In this document: piece by piece, positions 16,318-37,260 of the stretch | How the letters are laid out: each line of letters opens with the position of its first letter | Position numbering within the stretch: position 1 is the first letter of the stretch | Source: Haloimpatiens lingqiaonensis | GTDB lineage: Bacteria; Bacillota; Clostridia; Clostridiales; Clostridiaceae | DNA length: 38,214 nucleotides | Assembly: GCF_901447495.1 (NCBI RefSeq) | Contig: NZ_CABDWS010000026.1 | Span: forward strand, 1 to 38,214 | Direction of reading: 5' to 3' | Program-made: the position numbers and the translations under genes | The notes under the pieces: generated by a model | Databases searched by the model: none | Seen by the model: the letters and a program-made list of their open reading frames with translations, nothing else | What the model was told of the DNA's origin: nothing

Positions 16318-17700
16318 ATGAGAAGACAAAAGCGTAAACGCAAAAGTTTTATTTTGCCTATTAGCATATCAGTAGGCATAATTATAATTTATTTATCTAT
16401 GGCATTATTCTTTAAAAATCATTTTTATTTTAAAACAACCATTAATGGTATTAAGGCCTCGGGGAAAACTGTTGAAGAGGTCATTGGACAAATAGAAGCA
16501 GATGTTAAAAACTATACATTGCAACTTAATGGTAGAAATGGAGTTACAGAAAAAATTTCAGCAAAGGATTTTAGTCTAAAATATAATTCTAATGATGAAA
16601 TAAAGAAATTAAAAGAAACTCAAAATCCTTTAAATCTATTTGGAGGTGTTTTTAAAAAACATCAATATAAAATACCAAAAACTATTTCTTATAATGAAAA
16701 TCAGTTAAAAGAATATGTGGATAAAATGTCTTTTTTTAAGGAAAAAAACATAATAAATCCTAAAAATGCAAGTTTAGAATATACGGATAAAGGCTATAAG
16801 GTTGTAAAGGAAGTTATGGGCACTAAAGTTAACAAAGATGTTCTATATAAAGAAATAAAAGATGCAATAATTAGCAGTACAGATATTATAAATTTAGAAG
16901 AAAGCAATTGTTATATAAATCCAAAGTATACTTCAAAATCAAAGGAAGTTACAGAAGCCCAAAAAACTATGAATAAATATTTACAATCAAAAATAACCTA
17001 TGACATTAGAGGAAATACAGAGGTTCTGGATTCTTCTAGCATAAAGGATTTAATTAGTGTGGATGAAAATTTTAATGTTAGCATAAGCAATAGCAAAATA
17101 TGGCAATACGTAAATAAATTAGCCTACACCTACGATACAGTGGGCAAGCCAAAGGATTTTGTTACTTCATCAGGAGAACATATAAAAGTGAATGGTGGAA
17201 GCTATGGCTGGAAAATCAGCCGTTCAAAAGAAGTGGAAAATCTGGTACAAGCTATAAAGGATGGAAAAGCTATAACTAAAAAACCTGCATATTCTCAAAC
17301 TGTAAACAGCACTGGCCCCAACGAAATAGGTAATTCTTATGTAGAAATTGACCTTACAAAGCAACATTTATGGGTTTACATTAATGGTAGTCCTGTGGTG
17401 GATGGCGATGTGGTTACTGGAAATGTAAGTAAAAATACCCCTACTCCTGAAGGTGTTTATAAATTGAATTATAAAGAAAAAGACTCTGTTTTAAAAGGCG
17501 ATGATTATGAAACTCCAGTTAGTTTTTGGATGCCTTTTAATGGAGGTATAGGAATGCACGATGCTATTTGGAGAAAAGAATTTGGCGGAAAGATATATGA
17601 AAAAAAAGGTTCTCATGGATGTGTAAATTGCCCTTATGATCTGGCAAAAGCCATATTTGAGAATGTTAAAACCGGCACTCCAGTAGTTTGCCATGTTTAA
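16318..17700 (+). CDS. L,D-transpeptidase with YkuD catalytic domain
   Basis: A 460-residue membrane-anchored wall cross-linking enzyme that forms 3-3 links between stem peptides. It has an N-terminal basic stretch and membrane helix (13-32), two PG_binding_4-type modules (about 35-320), and a C-terminal YkuD domain (about 340-460). The catalytic motif is intact: GGIGMHDA and SHGCVNCP, with the nucleophilic Cys in HGCVN. AGGAGG lies 8 bases before the ATG. A TATAAT at 16282-16287 sits 30 bases upstream. The leader contains two diverged copies of a TTTAGGC...AATG...TATA segment (16168 and 16259), perhaps a duplicated promoter. Confidence 0.93.
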   Translation: MRRQKRKRKSFILPISISVGIIIIYLSMALFFKNHFYFKTTINGIKASGKTVEEVIGQIEADVKNYTLQLNGRNGVTEKISAKDFSLKYNSNDEIKKLKETQNPLNLFGGVFKKHQYKIPKTISYNENQLKEYVDKMSFFKEKNIINPKNASLEYTDKGYKVVKEVMGTKVNKDVLYKEIKDAIISSTDIINLEESNCYINPKYTSKSKEVTEAQKTMNKYLQSKITYDIRGNTEVLDSSSIKDLISVDENFNVSISNSKIWQYVNKLAYTYDTVGKPKDFVTSSGEHIKVNGGSYGWKISRSKEVENLVQAIKDGKAITKKPAYSQTVNSTGPNEIGNSYVEIDLTKQHLWVYINGSPVVDGDVVTGNVSKNTPTPEGVYKLNYKEKDSVLKGDDYETPVSFWMPFNGGIGMHDAIWRKEFGGKIYEKKGSHGCVNCPYDLAKAIFENVKTGTPVVCHV

Positions 17701-24085: not shown

Positions 24086-25222
24086 CTATTTAACTACACC
24101 ATTGATTACATCTTCATATATTTCTGCCATTATTGCTTTCACCTTATCTTTATCATACTTTTTAACTTCTTGAATATTGTAATCACCCATTTTTTTGCGT
24201 ATTTCAGTGTCATTAATTAAATTCTCAATACCCTTTACAAATCCATTTACATCATTAGATTCAACTAAATATCCACCTTTACCATCTTTAATCAAATCAT
24301 TATTTCCTCTTATTTTAGAACAAACGACAGGTAATCCTGTGGACATAGCTTCCATTAAAGCTACGGACAGCCCTTCTCTAGATGAAGGAAACACAAAAAC
24401 ATCTGCTATCCTTATAATCTCAACTATATCCATACGATAACCCAGTAACTTAACTTTTTTCTCTAAACCTAGTTTGTATATTAAATGTTTTAAATAATTT
24501 TCTAAAGCACCTTCACCGCAAATCAAATAATAAACATTTGGATTGTTTAACTGTGCTATAGCATTTATTGAAGTTTCATGATTTTTATTTTTATTAAGCT
24601 CTCCTATGGAAAGTACTACAAAAGCATCCATTGGCACACCTAGCTCATTGCGCTTTGCCCATTTATCCACAATCTTATCTTTAAATTTTTCCGTATCAAC
24701 TCCAACGCCTGGAACATACACAACTTTAACTGACTTAAATTTCTGTGCTATATCATAATCTTCTTTATTTATTGTAATCAGTACATCAGTATATCTTGCC
24801 AACCACAATTCAACAGGATAAAACAATATCCAATTTTTAAGAGGAGCTCCCTTAAAAAAGTGAAAACCATGGGCTGTATATATAACTTTTGTTCCCTTTT
24901 TCCGAGCTTTTTTAGCAGCCATTCTCGTTAGTGCAGCTGCCACAGGTGTATGACAATGGATAATATCGTATTCACCAAAATCTATTATTCTTTTTAACTT
25001 TTTATATGCAGCTATATTGTCTAAATTAAATGGTGTTCTTTCAAATGAAATATCAAAATACTTATGGCAATAGGGAATACTGCAATCTTCCTTATTTTCA
25101 TAATCATTTTTTGCACAAACATGTATCTCATACCCCTTATTTTTAAGCCACTTTAAATAGGGAATATGGAATTCCATTAAATGCATTTTAACTAAGTTTG
25201 CAACAAATAATACTTTTTTCAT
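24086..25222 (-). CDS. Glycosyltransferase family 4, EpsD/CapM-like
   Basis: A 378-residue GT-B enzyme. It begins KKVLFVANLVKMHLMEFHIP and has IIHCHTPVAAALTRMAAKKA and YTAHGFHFFKGAP, which I associate with EpsD/CapM-type polysaccharide glycosyltransferases. The donor domain holds VLSIGELNKNKNHE and FVFPSSREGLSVALMEAM. Being the first complete glycosyltransferase after the sugar transferase, it is a candidate to add the second sugar. GGAGAAG lies before the ATG. Confidence 0.9.
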   Translation of the reverse strand: MKKVLFVANLVKMHLMEFHIPYLKWLKNKGYEIHVCAKNDYENKEDCSIPYCHKYFDISFERTPFNLDNIAAYKKLKRIIDFGEYDIIHCHTPVAAALTRMAAKKARKKGTKVIYTAHGFHFFKGAPLKNWILFYPVELWLARYTDVLITINKEDYDIAQKFKSVKVVYVPGVGVDTEKFKDKIVDKWAKRNELGVPMDAFVVLSIGELNKNKNHETSINAIAQLNNPNVYYLICGEGALENYLKHLIYKLGLEKKVKLLGYRMDIVEIIRIADVFVFPSSREGLSVALMEAMSTGLPVVCSKIRGNNDLIKDGKGGYLVESNDVNGFVKGIENLINDTEIRKKMGDYNIQEVKKYDKDKVKAIMAEIYEDVINGVVK

Positions 25223-25249
25223 AACAACTTCTCCGTTAACCTAATTTCT

Positions 25250-26232
25250 CTAAACGCTCCCATAATATAAACAAGTATTCCTAATCCCCTGCTCTAAATC
25301 ATATTCATTACACCAATTTAAAAATTTCATTGCTTTATCATTGCTAGAATAACTATCTCTTATCTCTCCCGTTCTGTCCTTTTCATGAAAAACTTCTAAA
25401 TCACTGACAAATATGGACTTCATTATGGTAAAAAGCCCATTCACCGTAGTGGGCTTACCAGTACTTATATTGAAAATTTCATTATCCCCCTTGGTCAAAG
25501 CCAGTACATTGGCCTTAGCTACATCATTAACCCATTGTATCTGACTAAATCACCAAATACATCTAACAGTACATTGGCCTTAGCTACATCATTAACATAT
25601 ATAAAATCCCTAGTTTGATTACCATCTCCAAATATTATGGGGCACTGATTATTTAAAAATTTATATATAAATACAGAAACCACGCCACCCTCCCCCTTAG
25701 GATCTTGGCGTATTCCATATACATTTGTATATCTAAAAATTGTATATTTAATATTGTAAAGTTGGGCATAAGCCTTTATATAGTGCTCTGGAACCTGCTT
25801 AGACACCCCGTAAAAAGATATAGGCTTAACTTGATGATTCTCATCTATTGGTAAATACATTGGATTACCGTATACCGCTGCTGAAGATGGATATATTATC
25901 TTTCTAACTTTAAATTCTCTACAACATTCCAGTATATTTACGGTACCCTTAATATTAATATCTGCATCTAAAGCTGGTTTTCTCATAGACATCTGTACAT
26001 CAATTTGAGCCGCATTGTGTATAACTACCTCTGGTTGTTCTTTTGCAAATATTATAAAAAGCTTGTGTGCATCCCTTATATCACATTTATAAAATCTAGC
26101 ATTTTTATTTACATGTTCTATTTTCCCTCTTGAAAGATTATCCACTATGACCACTTCATGGTCTTCTTTTACAAGTAAATCCGCCACATTAGAACCTATA
26201 AATCCTGCCCCACCTGTTATTAAAACCTTCAT
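25250..26232 (-). pseudogene. NAD-dependent nucleotide-sugar epimerase broken by a 65-bp insertion
   Basis: An extended SDR epimerase of the UDP-glucose/UDP-GlcNAc 4-epimerase type: LITGGAGFIGSNVADLLV for NAD binding, PSSAAVYG, and the YGVSK catalytic Tyr/Lys. The frame breaks after FIYVNDVAKANVL. A 30-bp segment is repeated 65 bases later with 35 unrelated bases between, which shifts the frame and brings a stop. Deleting those 65 bases gives an unbroken VNDVAKANVLALTKGDNEI and a normal C-terminal end at 25250. The split yields 237- and 82-residue frames. The function is probably lost here; galE at 32990-33955 might substitute if the substrates agree. Confidence 0.88.
25502..25596. repeat. 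30-bp direct repeats inside the epimerase gene
   Basis: Two identical 30-base segments (25502-25531 and 25567-25596) separated by 35 bases that match nothing else I can see in the window. One repeat plus the spacer accounts for the frame break. Confidence 0.9.
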
Positions 26233-26240
26233 ACTACCCC

Positions 26241-26319
26241 ACCTTATTATTTATCTACTAACCTTATTATTTATCTACTAACCTTACTATTTATCTACCC
26301 AACCTTACTATTTATCTAG
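26241..26319. repeat. Four tandem ~20-bp repeats between the epimerase and sugar transferase genes
   Basis: Units of ACCTTATTATTTATCTACTA: two exact copies, then a 21-bp and a truncated variant (ACCTTACTATTTATCTA). The stop codon of the sugar transferase lies in the last unit. On the minus strand each unit carries AAGGT, and the last merges into the ribosome site of the epimerase. Confidence 0.9.
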
Positions 26320-26968
26320 CACCCTGACCTGTTAACACTATTTTTATTGTTTTTAATATTATTTTAATATCCATTAATAAACTTCTTTTCTCTATATATT
26401 TTAAATCCAGCTGCAATTTTTCCTTAGGCGTTATATCGTATCCACCATTTACTTGGGCATATCCAGTAAGTCCTGGCATTACCTTTAACCTTTCCCTGAA
26501 ATCTGGTATATATTTTGAAAATTCCTCTGTAAAGCATGCTCTTTCTGGTCTTGGCCCAACTATACTCATATCGCCTTTTATTATATTCCATAGCTGTGGA
26601 AGTTCGTCTATTCTAGTTCTTCTGATTATTTTACCCACCCTAGTTACTCTACTATCATTTTTATCTGCCCACCTTGGACCCTCTCTCTCTGCATCTATAT
26701 ACATGGATCTTATTTTAAATACATTAAAGGTCTTTCCAAACCTACCACACCTCTCCTGCTTATATATAGAACTTCCCTTTGACTCTAATCTTACTAAAAT
26801 GCAAGTTACAAAAATTATTGGCACTGCCACAATTGCCACTAATAAACTTAATAAAATATCAAATAATCTCTTTATAATTTCATAAACTGGTTTTTCTTCT
26901 ATGCTCCATTTCGCATCCATTGGAGCATCATCAGTTTTAGGGAATACGTGGTAATTGGTATCTATCAT
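26312..26968 (-). CDS. Initiating sugar-1-phosphate transferase (bacterial sugar transferase family)
   Basis: A 218-residue membrane enzyme that places the first sugar phosphate on undecaprenyl phosphate. One hydrophobic hairpin lies near residues 34-56; the catalytic part follows: KIRSMYIDAE, RVGKIIRRTRIDELPQLWNI, GDMSIVGPRPER and PGLTGYAQVNG, all family motifs in order. The start overlaps the end of the cpsD gene by 4 bases, so the two are translationally coupled. The length fits the short EpsL/CpsE-catalytic type without the long N-terminal membrane domain. Confidence 0.93.
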   Translation of the reverse strand: MIDTNYHVFPKTDDAPMDAKWSIEEKPVYEIIKRLFDILLSLLVAIVAVPIIFVTCILVRLESKGSSIYKQERCGRFGKTFNVFKIRSMYIDAEREGPRWADKNDSRVTRVGKIIRRTRIDELPQLWNIIKGDMSIVGPRPERACFTEEFSKYIPDFRERLKVMPGLTGYAQVNGGYDITPKEKLQLDLKYIEKRSLLMDIKIILKTIKIVLTGQGAR

Positions 26969-30190: not shown

Positions 30191-30285
30191 ATGTCCATCT
30201 CCTCTCATTGACACTTTCTACTATTCATATTCGTCCAATATTAATTTTTCTTTTAAATTTATTTGAAGTTTTTTTAAAATGCAGT

Positions 30286-30375
30286 AGAGTAAGTCAGAGG
30301 ACCTTCGCCTCTTTCTCCTCATCAAACCGTGCATGCGGTTTTACCGCACACGGCTTTCCGATATTCTTCTTTCCA
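30286..30375 (-). mobile_element. 3' tip of a group II intron (domains V and VI only)
   Basis: On the minus strand AAGCCGTGTGCGGT, loop AAAA, then ACCGCATGCACGGTTT form domain V with the catalytic AGC/bulge pattern (30357-30323). GAGGAGAAAGAGG, CGAAGGT and CCTCTGACTTAC then form domain VI with the branch-point A (30322-30288). No reverse transcriptase gene or 5' intron domains precede it; only about 50 bases upstream look intron-like. A truncated insertion, as left by incomplete reverse transcription or deletion. Confidence 0.8.
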
Positions 30376-31961: not shown

Positions 31962-32528
31962 TCATGCATCAATTTTAACTTTTATACCACTTTCCACAAA
32001 GTTCTTATATAACGCTCTTTTACCTGCATCCTTGAAATAACAAAGAATCTTGTCTGAGCATATAATTTTTTCTTTCCTTTCACCTATATACATGCTATAG
32101 CTGCTCCACTGATACTCCTCTGGTTTTTCAACCATATTAGCTTTCACTGGATTCAAGTGAATATATCTGCTAGCCTCAAGCATCTGGGCATCTGTTTCTA
32201 TAAACTGTGGATGATATCTATCTTGGAATAAGTGGCCTATGTAATTATATTTTTTATTAAAATATTTTGCATACATAGCGTTTACTCTCCCTATAAATTT
32301 ACCTGGTGGTTTATCCTTCGTTTCTATTAATATGTGCACATGGTTATCCATCAAACAATAGCAAATTATATTGTATTCATCGTATTTAAAGTGGTCCAAC
32401 GCTTCTTCTATCAATATTAAATAGTATTGAAAATCCTCTCCATCTCTAAATATATCATTTCTATGGTTGCCTCTTGCAGTTATATGACAGCTGCTTCCGG
32501 GAAACCAAGGTACTTTTAGTGTAGGCAA
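31962..32528 (-). CDS. REP-associated tyrosine transposase (RAYT, Y1/IS200-like HUH), copy 1
   Basis: A 188-residue single-strand transposase. HUH motif in CYCLMDNHVHILIE; catalytic Tyr in SRYIHLNPVKANMV; the N-terminal ITARGNHRNDIF and QDRYHPQFIE are typical of the RAYT family rather than IS200 TnpA. RAYTs cut and move short hairpin REP sequences and are usually single-copy domesticated genes. Here there are two copies, and family 1 hairpins lie near. AAGGAGGG stands 8 bases before TTG at 32528 (MPTLKVPWFPG); the frame to 32552 would include that site. No IS ends or target duplications surround the gene. Confidence 0.92.
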   Translation of the reverse strand: MPTLKVPWFPGSSCHITARGNHRNDIFRDGEDFQYYLILIEEALDHFKYDEYNIICYCLMDNHVHILIETKDKPPGKFIGRVNAMYAKYFNKKYNYIGHLFQDRYHPQFIETDAQMLEASRYIHLNPVKANMVEKPEEYQWSSYSMYIGERKEKIICSDKILCYFKDAGKRALYKNFVESGIKVKIDA

Positions 32529-32639
32529 AACAGCACCCTCCTTTTTTATCACTATTCTTGATTATGACCATTTCTATAAATTTTACACATTAATTTGCTT
32601 TATTTTTTATGAAAATTTAAATGAAGGAAAATTAGCATA

Positions 32640-34639: not shown

Positions 34640-34765
34640 GTGTAACCCATGTTATGAAACATTTAAAACTATCATGTGAATATTTTACATATGGGTCGAT
34701 GTCAGTGTAACCCATGTTATGAAACATTTAAAACCCTAAAAAGTATAACCTATGTCATGGGGCAT
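34640..34765 (+). promoter_or_regulatory. Iteron- or operator-like direct repeats upstream of the HTH_36 gene
   Basis: Two identical 30-base repeats at 34640-34669 and 34705-34734 start GTGTAACCCATGTTATGAAA; each contains the dyad ATGTT-ATGA-AACAT. A third, degenerate copy (AGTATAACCTATGTCATGGG) starts at 34742. They end about 60 bases before the start codon, so they could bind the encoded protein for autoregulation or replication. Confidence 0.7.
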
Positions 34766-34823: not shown

Positions 34824-35345
34824 ATGAGCTTTATATCAATTGATTCTGAAATCTTAAATACTAATATAGATGGACAGGCTTTAAAACTATACTGCCTACT
34901 AGAAAGCTACTGCTATGGAGATAAAAATGATTGTTTTCCATCTCAAAATACTCTAGCTGCTAGAATGAAGAAAAGCATAAGAACAATACAAAGATACCTA
35001 AAAACACTAAAAGATCTAGGACTTGTTATAATAAAAAGACGTGGTTCTACCAGCAATCTGTACATATTGCCAAAGAAACTTAATAAAAAAGTGCAAGAAA
35101 CTGCTCAAAAAATACAAGAAAAATGCAGTGCTTTTAAGGCTACATTAAAAACTAAAAAAAGTGCTGATTCTAATAAAACCAACACTAGCAATGATAACTA
35201 TAACTATAAAAACCACAAAAACTACAAAAGAAGCTATAAATCCAATACCTTCAACGACTATACTCAAAGAACATATGATTTTAGTAAGCTAGAGCAGGCT
35301 TTATTGGGCAATGCTTCTTATGAGTATGATGATATTTTGAAGTAG
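34824..35345 (+). CDS. Winged-helix HTH_36 protein, replication-initiator-like
   Basis: A 173-residue protein. Residues 1-85 form a winged helix of the HTH_36 type (FPSQNTLAARMKKSIRTIQR, then YLKTLKDLGLVIIKRRGS), found in plasmid and phage replication initiators and related regulators. Residues 90-150 are a Lys/Asn-rich linker; the end is DFSKLEQALLGNASYEYD. GGAGG lies 8 bases before the ATG. Iteron-like repeats stand directly upstream. It is the only + strand gene in the last 20 kb, converging with the comM remnant. The tail is duplicated at 28982. No plasmid genes accompany it, so a domesticated or orphan regulator is as likely as an initiator. Confidence 0.78.
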   Translation: MSFISIDSEILNTNIDGQALKLYCLLESYCYGDKNDCFPSQNTLAARMKKSIRTIQRYLKTLKDLGLVIIKRRGSTSNLYILPKKLNKKVQETAQKIQEKCSAFKATLKTKKSADSNKTNTSNDNYNYKNHKNYKRSYKSNTFNDYTQRTYDFSKLEQALLGNASYEYDDILK

Positions 35346-36534: not shown

Positions 36535-37260
36535 CTCCTTTTCCTTAAAATTAAACTATGATCAATTTCATAATGCATCCATCATGCATCAATTTTAACT
36601 TTTATACCACTTTCCACAAAGTTCTTATATAACTCTCTTTTATCTGCTTCCTTGTAATAACAAAGAATTTTGTCAGAACATATAATTTTTTCTTTTCTTT
36701 CACCTATGTACATGCTATAGCTGCTCCACTGATACTCCTCTGGTTTTTCAACCATATTAGCTTTCACTGGATTTAAATGAATATATCTGCTAGCCTCAAG
36801 CATTTGGGCATCTGTTTCTATAAACTGTGGATGATACCTGTCTTGAAATAAGTGGCCTATGTAATTATATTTTTTATTAAAATATTTTGCATACATGGCA
36901 TTTACCCTCCCTATAAATTTACCTGGTGGTTTATCCTTTGTTTCTATTAATATGTGTACATGGTTATCCATCAAACAATAGCAAATTATCTTATATCTAT
37001 CATATTTAAAGTGGTCTAATGCCTCTTCTATCAATATTAAATAGTATTGAAAATCTTCTCCATCTCTAAATATATCATTTCTATGGTTGCCTCTTGCAGT
37101 TATATGGCAGCTGCTTCCGGGAAACCAAGGTACTTTTGGTGTAGGCAAAACAACATCCTCCTTTTTCATCACTATTCTTGATTATGACCATTTCTATAAA
37201 TTTTACACATTAATTTGCTTTATTTTTTATGGAAATTTGAATGAAGGAAAATTAGCATAA
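36422..37260 (-). repeat. 839-bp duplication (comM start plus RAYT), copy 2
   Basis: Matches 31802-32640 at equal length. On its right border a family 1 repeat separates it from family 2 copy D; in copy 1 the family 2 element follows directly. Confidence 0.9.
36582..37148 (-). CDS. REP-associated tyrosine transposase (RAYT, Y1/IS200-like HUH), copy 2
   Basis: A 188-residue protein, about 94% identical to copy 1, with the same HUH (NHVHILIE) and Tyr (SRYIHLNP) motifs intact. Changes are mostly near the ends (CYYKEADKRELY for CYFKDAGKRALY). AAGGAGGA stands 8 bases before TTG at 37148 (MPTPKVPWFPG). It lies 47 bases upstream of comM and 111 bases downstream of a family 1 repeat, the element it may recognise. 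Confidence 0.92.
   Translation of the reverse strand: MPTPKVPWFPGSSCHITARGNHRNDIFRDGEDFQYYLILIEEALDHFKYDRYKIICYCLMDNHVHILIETKDKPPGKFIGRVNAMYAKYFNKKYNYIGHLFQDRYHPQFIETDAQMLEASRYIHLNPVKANMVEKPEEYQWSSYSMYIGERKEKIICSDKILCYYKEADKRELYKNFVESGIKVKIDA

Follow-up and report, generated by a model that had tools for sequence, protein, structure and literature searches.

How does a sugar epimerase gene come to be interrupted by 35 bases of filler set between two copies of a 30-bp sequence? The question is raised by the first 38,214 nucleotides of contig NZ_CABDWS010000026.1 of Haloimpatiens lingqiaonensis (assembly GCF_901447495.1), hereafter the window, in which a galE-like epimerase gene is broken at positions 25502-25596. 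A second stretch of the same dimensions lies further along the window, and we infer that both are very probably natural off-target integrations made by the Cas1-Cas2 integrase of a CRISPR (clustered regularly interspaced short palindromic repeats) system.

The interrupted epimerase gene

The site is an exact repeat-filler-repeat of 30 + 35 + 30 bases, in which the two 30-mers are identical and lie 65 bases apart from start to start (Table 1). The first epimerase frame starts at 26232, reads across the insert (...LDVFGDLVRYNGLMM) and reaches a stop codon at 25519-25521, within the next 30-mer. The best NCBIfam model for the resulting 237-residue part is galE (5.1e-52), below the equivalog cut-off, and the tail of the gene, which is out of frame past the insert (25250-25498), has no Pfam match.

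The epimerase gene was searched for in 58 genomes, of which 28, our own included, gave some match. The alignments to three relatives break at query positions 666 (G022), 661 (G012) and 660 (G023), and restart at 702, 702 and 708, respectively. The extra 65 bases are skipped exactly in G022 and nearly so in G012 and G023, which indicates that they are an insertion in this genome; since these relatives align on both sides without them, uninterrupted copies of the epimerase gene exist in relatives. The clearest empty site is that of G022, where the two alignment pieces overlap by 30 bases, corresponding to a single 30-mer without filler. These comparisons bear out the original prediction, made from this DNA alone, that a 65-bp insertion composed of a 30-bp direct repeat and 35 bases of filler disrupts an epimerase: its coordinates are exact, and among the relatives searched no normal epimerase contains a match to the filler.

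Two further candidates were tried and rejected. No inverted repeats occur at the insertion site, the four inverted pairs found in 24600-26600 all lying elsewhere, which argues against an insertion sequence (IS), a miniature inverted-repeat transposable element (MITE) or another mobile element with inverted ends. Nor is the site an ordinary CRISPR array, for it holds only two copies of a 30-mer that belongs to a coding gene, together with one insert, and the 37-bp repeat of the resident CRISPR array differs from it.

Four imperfect tandem units with a spacing of 20-21 bp occupy window positions 26240-26318, immediately upstream of the start of the broken gene.

A phage-like insert and a second structure

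A search of the same 58 genomes gave one match, in G009, that spans precisely the 35 filler bases (91% identity). It falls within a gene for a 461-residue terminase large subunit (PHROG 10250, 8.5e-17), which adjoins terminase small subunit and portal genes in a prophage region of the C. cadaveris IFB3C5 chromosome (L209). When 206 genomes of the family were searched with up to 3 mismatches to the filler, matches were found in three, namely at our own site, in G009 and in G105, with the reversed-pattern control giving 0 in every row. The filler is identical to the terminase gene at 32 of 35 positions both in G009 and in G105, where the matching site translates to the same kind of protein, and at 31 of 35 in an IMG/VR contig (L025) found via the back-translated peptide. 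On 34 terminase loci, the best match of the filler had 3 mismatches, as compared to 10 for 200 shuffled versions and 9 for 200 random 35-mers of our own genome. The broken epimerase frame translates the insert in the terminase frame (LDVFGDLVRYNG).

These results support an epimerase gene broken by a templated 65-bp insertion, with phage DNA as the putative template and the terminase gene as a relative of its source. That a simple tandem duplication would not suffice and that the insertion looked templated or two-step had been anticipated; the near identity of the filler to phage terminase DNA agrees with the first point and with a templated insertion. The suggestion that the filler might be traced elsewhere in the same genome led back only to the insertion site, its single occurrence there, and copying from another place in the genome was thus rejected. 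The same holds for a degraded copy of the epimerase gene itself, since a short likeness of the filler to the FGDG stretch of the gene, noted by eye, is surpassed by the alignment to terminase over the full length.

A second exact 30 + 35 + 30 structure is present at 34640-34734 of the window, where it is intergenic. A paralogous stretch of our own genome (contig C108) and one of a congener (G002:C13) carry one copy of the 30-mer, differing from that of the window by 1 and 2 bases, respectively. Both alignments extend through the first 30-mer (and, by chance, one base further) and restart at the second, and these single-copy sites indicate that the second structure is likewise a 65-bp insertion. 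In a scan of 2,291,447 of the 3,294,006 bases of the genome, the two structures of the window were the only exact 30 + 35 cases; the other exact repeats were mostly of low complexity, and the scan misses the structure at 34640-34734 when run with a complexity filter.

The existence of two such structures bears on two other explanations. Template switching in replication or repair, in which 35 bp would be copied from a phage genome and synthesis resumed 30 bp upstream, could yield such a product a single time, the template being phage DNA. It would have to account for identical lengths of 30 and 35 in two separate events, however, and the flanks of the filler sources found, read by eye, show no shared base or microhomology extending the repeat; we regard it as improbable. 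It had also been proposed that the repeat is revertible and switches the sugar content of the polymer. Indeed, 30-bp direct repeats are able to recombine, and the four neighbouring genes that were scanned are polysaccharide genes, encoding a sugar transferase, a glycosyltransferase and membrane proteins of the Wzy_C and Polysacc_synt types. A structure of the same dimensions nevertheless sits outside any gene, and one integration event, with duplication of its target, would account for the 30-bp repeat, leaving the switch with hardly any credibility.

Three other repeat arrangements of the genome were noted. An exact 36-bp repeat with a 45-bp gap (L030:10766) is outside the 30 + 35 kind, and a 25 + 34 repeat-gap case occurs at L104:14534. 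The pair at L207:3775 (25/30), with period 65, was considered as a possible third scar in decay but discarded, several other periods giving as many such pairs.

Table 1. Positions in the window of the two 30 + 35 + 30 structures and of the broken gene; duplications and inserts are named according to the proposed integration
Feature	Position	Strand	Remarks
Putative target duplication, copy A, 30 bp	25502..25531	+	identical to copy B; one copy in relative G022
Spacer-like insert, 35 bp	25532..25566	-	minus strand corresponds to phage terminase peptide LDVFGDLVRYNG; 32/35 to G009 and G105, 31/35 to IMG/VR L025
Putative target duplication, copy B, 30 bp	25567..25596	+	identical to copy A
galE-like SDR epimerase, 5' part, 237 aa, truncated	25519..26232	-	Pfam PF01370 8.7e-61; NCBIfam galE 5.1e-52
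galE-like tail, out of frame past insert	25250..25498	-	NCBIfam galE 1.9e-6, model positions 248-320
Second structure, putative target duplication, copy A, 30 bp	34640..34669	+	exact-repeat scan
Second structure, 35-bp insert	34670..34704		absent from single-copy sites in own C108 and congener G002:C13
Second structure, putative target duplication, copy B, 30 bp	34705..34734	+	~90 bp upstream of HTH_36 gene (34824-35345)

Candidate integrases

Spacer-sized foreign DNA together with a duplicated target of the size of a repeat points to off-target integration by Cas1-Cas2, and to its having occurred twice. The integrase would have taken up 35 bp from the terminase gene of a phage, which would then have gone into the epimerase gene rather than the leader end of an array. 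If the two strands of the target were attacked in stagger, 30 bp apart, and the gaps then filled in, the target would be duplicated on each side to give a solitary repeat-spacer-repeat, and the gain of 65 bp would shift the epimerase frame and break the gene. The structure at 34640-34734 would record an independent second event of the same kind.

The genome carries one type I-B CRISPR system. In family searches that covered the entire assembly, one cas1 was found at the end of contig C48, as well as one cas2 and one cas7 on contig C93, where the gene order is cas2, cas4, cas8b, cas7, cas5, cas3, cas6. NCBIfam models identify cas8b, cas7 and cas5 as type I-B, while cas2, cas4 and cas3 are named by general models and cas6 has a PADLOC Cas6 match without an NCBIfam match; in PADLOC, cas1 and cas2 fit Cas1b and Cas2b best. 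C48 and C93 likely join, although their ends do not overlap. In the array adjoining cas1, an exact 37-bp repeat occurs 116 times; the intervals measure 34-38 bases except for one of 40 and one of 66. Intervals of 36, 35 and 37 bases account for 51, 36 and 21 of the 115, respectively, and the 35-bp insert falls inside this range.

Two features of the array stand apart. The 66-base interval (L012:10524-10589) holds a repeat remnant of ~11 bases, left perhaps by a deletion or by integration at a wrong place within the array. The stretches G000:C48:15285-15317 and 17608-17640 are reverse-complementary to each other along 33 bases, which would fit the acquisition of one protospacer twice, on opposite strands.

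The 115 intervals were matched to a first set of loci at up to 6 mismatches with the 66-base interval left out, and to additional loci at up to 5 mismatches, for which the 66-base interval was represented by its two ends. At no more than 1 mismatch, four foreign protospacers were found, with 5' flanks TTA (L169), TTA (L171), and TTA and TTG (both L189); the TTG-flanked protospacer corresponds to bases 1-36 of the 66-base interval. One match at 6 mismatches was of low complexity, and a blastn comparison of the array with phages, covering 7,991 of its ~8,500 bases, gave no match at E 0.05. For the insert, the corresponding place was read beside terminase matches with up to 8 mismatches, 14 rows from 61 loci that reduce to 10 distinct sequences once identical ones are merged; it reads TTA in 8 of these and TTT in the other 2. 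The resident spacer length and TTA/TTG-type motif would roughly fit the insert.

A target duplication is expected to be as long as the repeat of the system responsible. The duplications measure 30 bp, as compared to repeats of 37 bp in the resident array and of 30 and 29 bp in the congeners G001 and G002, and membership of the two structures among off-target Cas1-Cas2 integrations is conditional on the duplication length matching the repeat of the responsible system. The integrase may have been the resident one, with its 37-bp repeats, or one from another type I-B system, whose repeats would measure 29-30 bp and which was not found in this genome.

The resident Cas1-Cas2 may have acted off target, where the ruler motifs of the repeat are missing, with its two attacks falling 30 bp apart. 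The resident cas1 and cas2 are the only ones found by the family searches, and both the length of the insert and its 5' TTN-type flank agree with the resident spacers. Read on the plus strand, the orientation that gives this flank for insert 1, the two 30-mers have AAC at their end, as does the resident repeat. In other systems the choice of the second site is set by elements within the repeat: such ruler elements are stated for types I-E and I-B and shown for type II-A (PMC6895254). Both duplications are nevertheless 30 bp and not 37, and we place the chance that the resident integrase acted slightly below even.

Alternatively, a second type I-B system with repeats of 29-30 bp may have acted and since been lost, or have resided on a mobile element, the duplication length being its fossil. 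In the two congeners compared, the repeats of 30 bp (G001) and 29 bp (G002) recur with periods of mostly 64-67. The HMARI (I-B) Cas1 model is passed by the Cas1 of G002, whereas resident Cas1 remains below its cut-off; the two proteins share 25% identity (50/200 positions), and PADLOC calls both Cas1b, by different models. Read on the minus strand, the two 30-mers open with GTT, and the junction of insert 2, GG|GTTTTA, equals the GTT-side end of the G002 array over 8 bases, this side being assumed to be that of the leader. Against such a system stand the single cas1 of the assembly, terminase flanks that are mixed in the GTT orientation, and a G002 repeat one base too short. A G002-type array had no match in our own genome, a weak negative, as one type was tested and no positive control was included. 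When a generic I-B repeat pattern was searched for at 2 mismatches, 30 matches were obtained, versus 25 for the reversed control. We consider this second system only slightly less probable than the resident one. In G001 itself, cas1 (G001:C2:8733-9571) is split into two overlapping matches, probably in two frames.

Several observations weigh against integration by any Cas1-Cas2 considered here. The resident repeats exceed the duplications in length, neither 30-mer is clearly like the resident repeat beyond the AAC end, and the G002 repeat also departs from 30 bp. The flanks that were read are not uniform: TTT and not TTA stands beside the terminase sequences nearest to the insert (3 rows, 2 distinct), a match with 3 mismatches (L172) is flanked by ATG, and the array spacer at L012:7174, which has a perfect match in our own genome outside the array (G000:C12, L097), is flanked there by GGA. 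No source was found for the second insert, for which some searches gave no match and others only partial matches at E ~4. The two insertions are clustered within 9.1 kb, and the scanned sample contains no other, which is not what random off-target integration would predict (~1%, by our estimate). Finally, both are known from assembled sequence alone, and an assembly fault is a possible objection.

Relation to known integrations and other features

Off-array integration of spacers is known from laboratory work, and Nivala, Shipman and Church reportedly described, in 2018, non-canonical off-target integration by Cas1-Cas2 with target duplication. Overexpression of Cas1-Cas2 leads to spacers integrated in non-array regions (PMC11788318, citing Nivala et al. 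2018). The structures described here are similar in that spacer-sized DNA occupies a non-array chromosomal site; unlike those integrations, they come from a deposited genome, in which a gene is broken, and their 30-bp duplication differs from the resident 37-bp array repeat. Ectopic acquisition in Streptococcus thermophilus arrays (PMC7999890, PMC8047081) also places a spacer away from the leader end but stays inside the array, whereas here a gene and an intergenic stretch are affected. The in vitro off-targets of type II-A Cas1-Cas2 (PMC6895254) offer another parallel, being non-array sites that resemble the leader-repeat junction, but the events there are probably half-site ones and took place on plasmids. 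Outside arrays, repeat-like sequences have been noted as sites of integration in vitro (PMC8047081), potG is named as an off-target integration site (PMC11687729), and a factor restraining Cas1 outside arrays is discussed (PMC9456107). Our literature search returned no report of a natural off-array spacer that breaks a gene, a weak absence given that most subscription papers lay outside its scope. The two structures look like natural off-array integrations, the first one gene-breaking.

CRISPR integrases may occasionally mutate the genome of their own host. If this is true, CRISPR immunity has a price in mutations, which ordinary genome sequences would reveal, and exact duplications of 28-37 bp lying one spacer length apart would show the off-target rate, the site preference and the duplication length across CRISPR-bearing species. 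The presence of two scars on one 38-kb contig, one of them breaking a gene for surface polysaccharide, suggests an effect that may be more than negligible. More tentatively still, CRISPR adaptation modules could be natural insertional mutagens that leave solitary scars in genes and promoters, the duplication length naming the system that acted, even one that has been lost.

Other features were noted in the window and in the genome. A near-identical pair of genes lies at window positions 31962-32552 and 36582-37172, in surroundings that are 94-98% identical, and both resemble genes for small transposases of the REP type. An Rfam match to the group II intron catalytic domain (RF00029, 54.1 bits) is present on the minus strand at 30284-30358. 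The 31-mer GTTTTCTTCATAGCCCTACGGGCATAGAAAC occurs in identical form at nine places of the genome, on contigs C7, C11, C33, C38, C79, C89, C119, C121 and C141, and at least six of the nine lie within 400 bases of a contig end.
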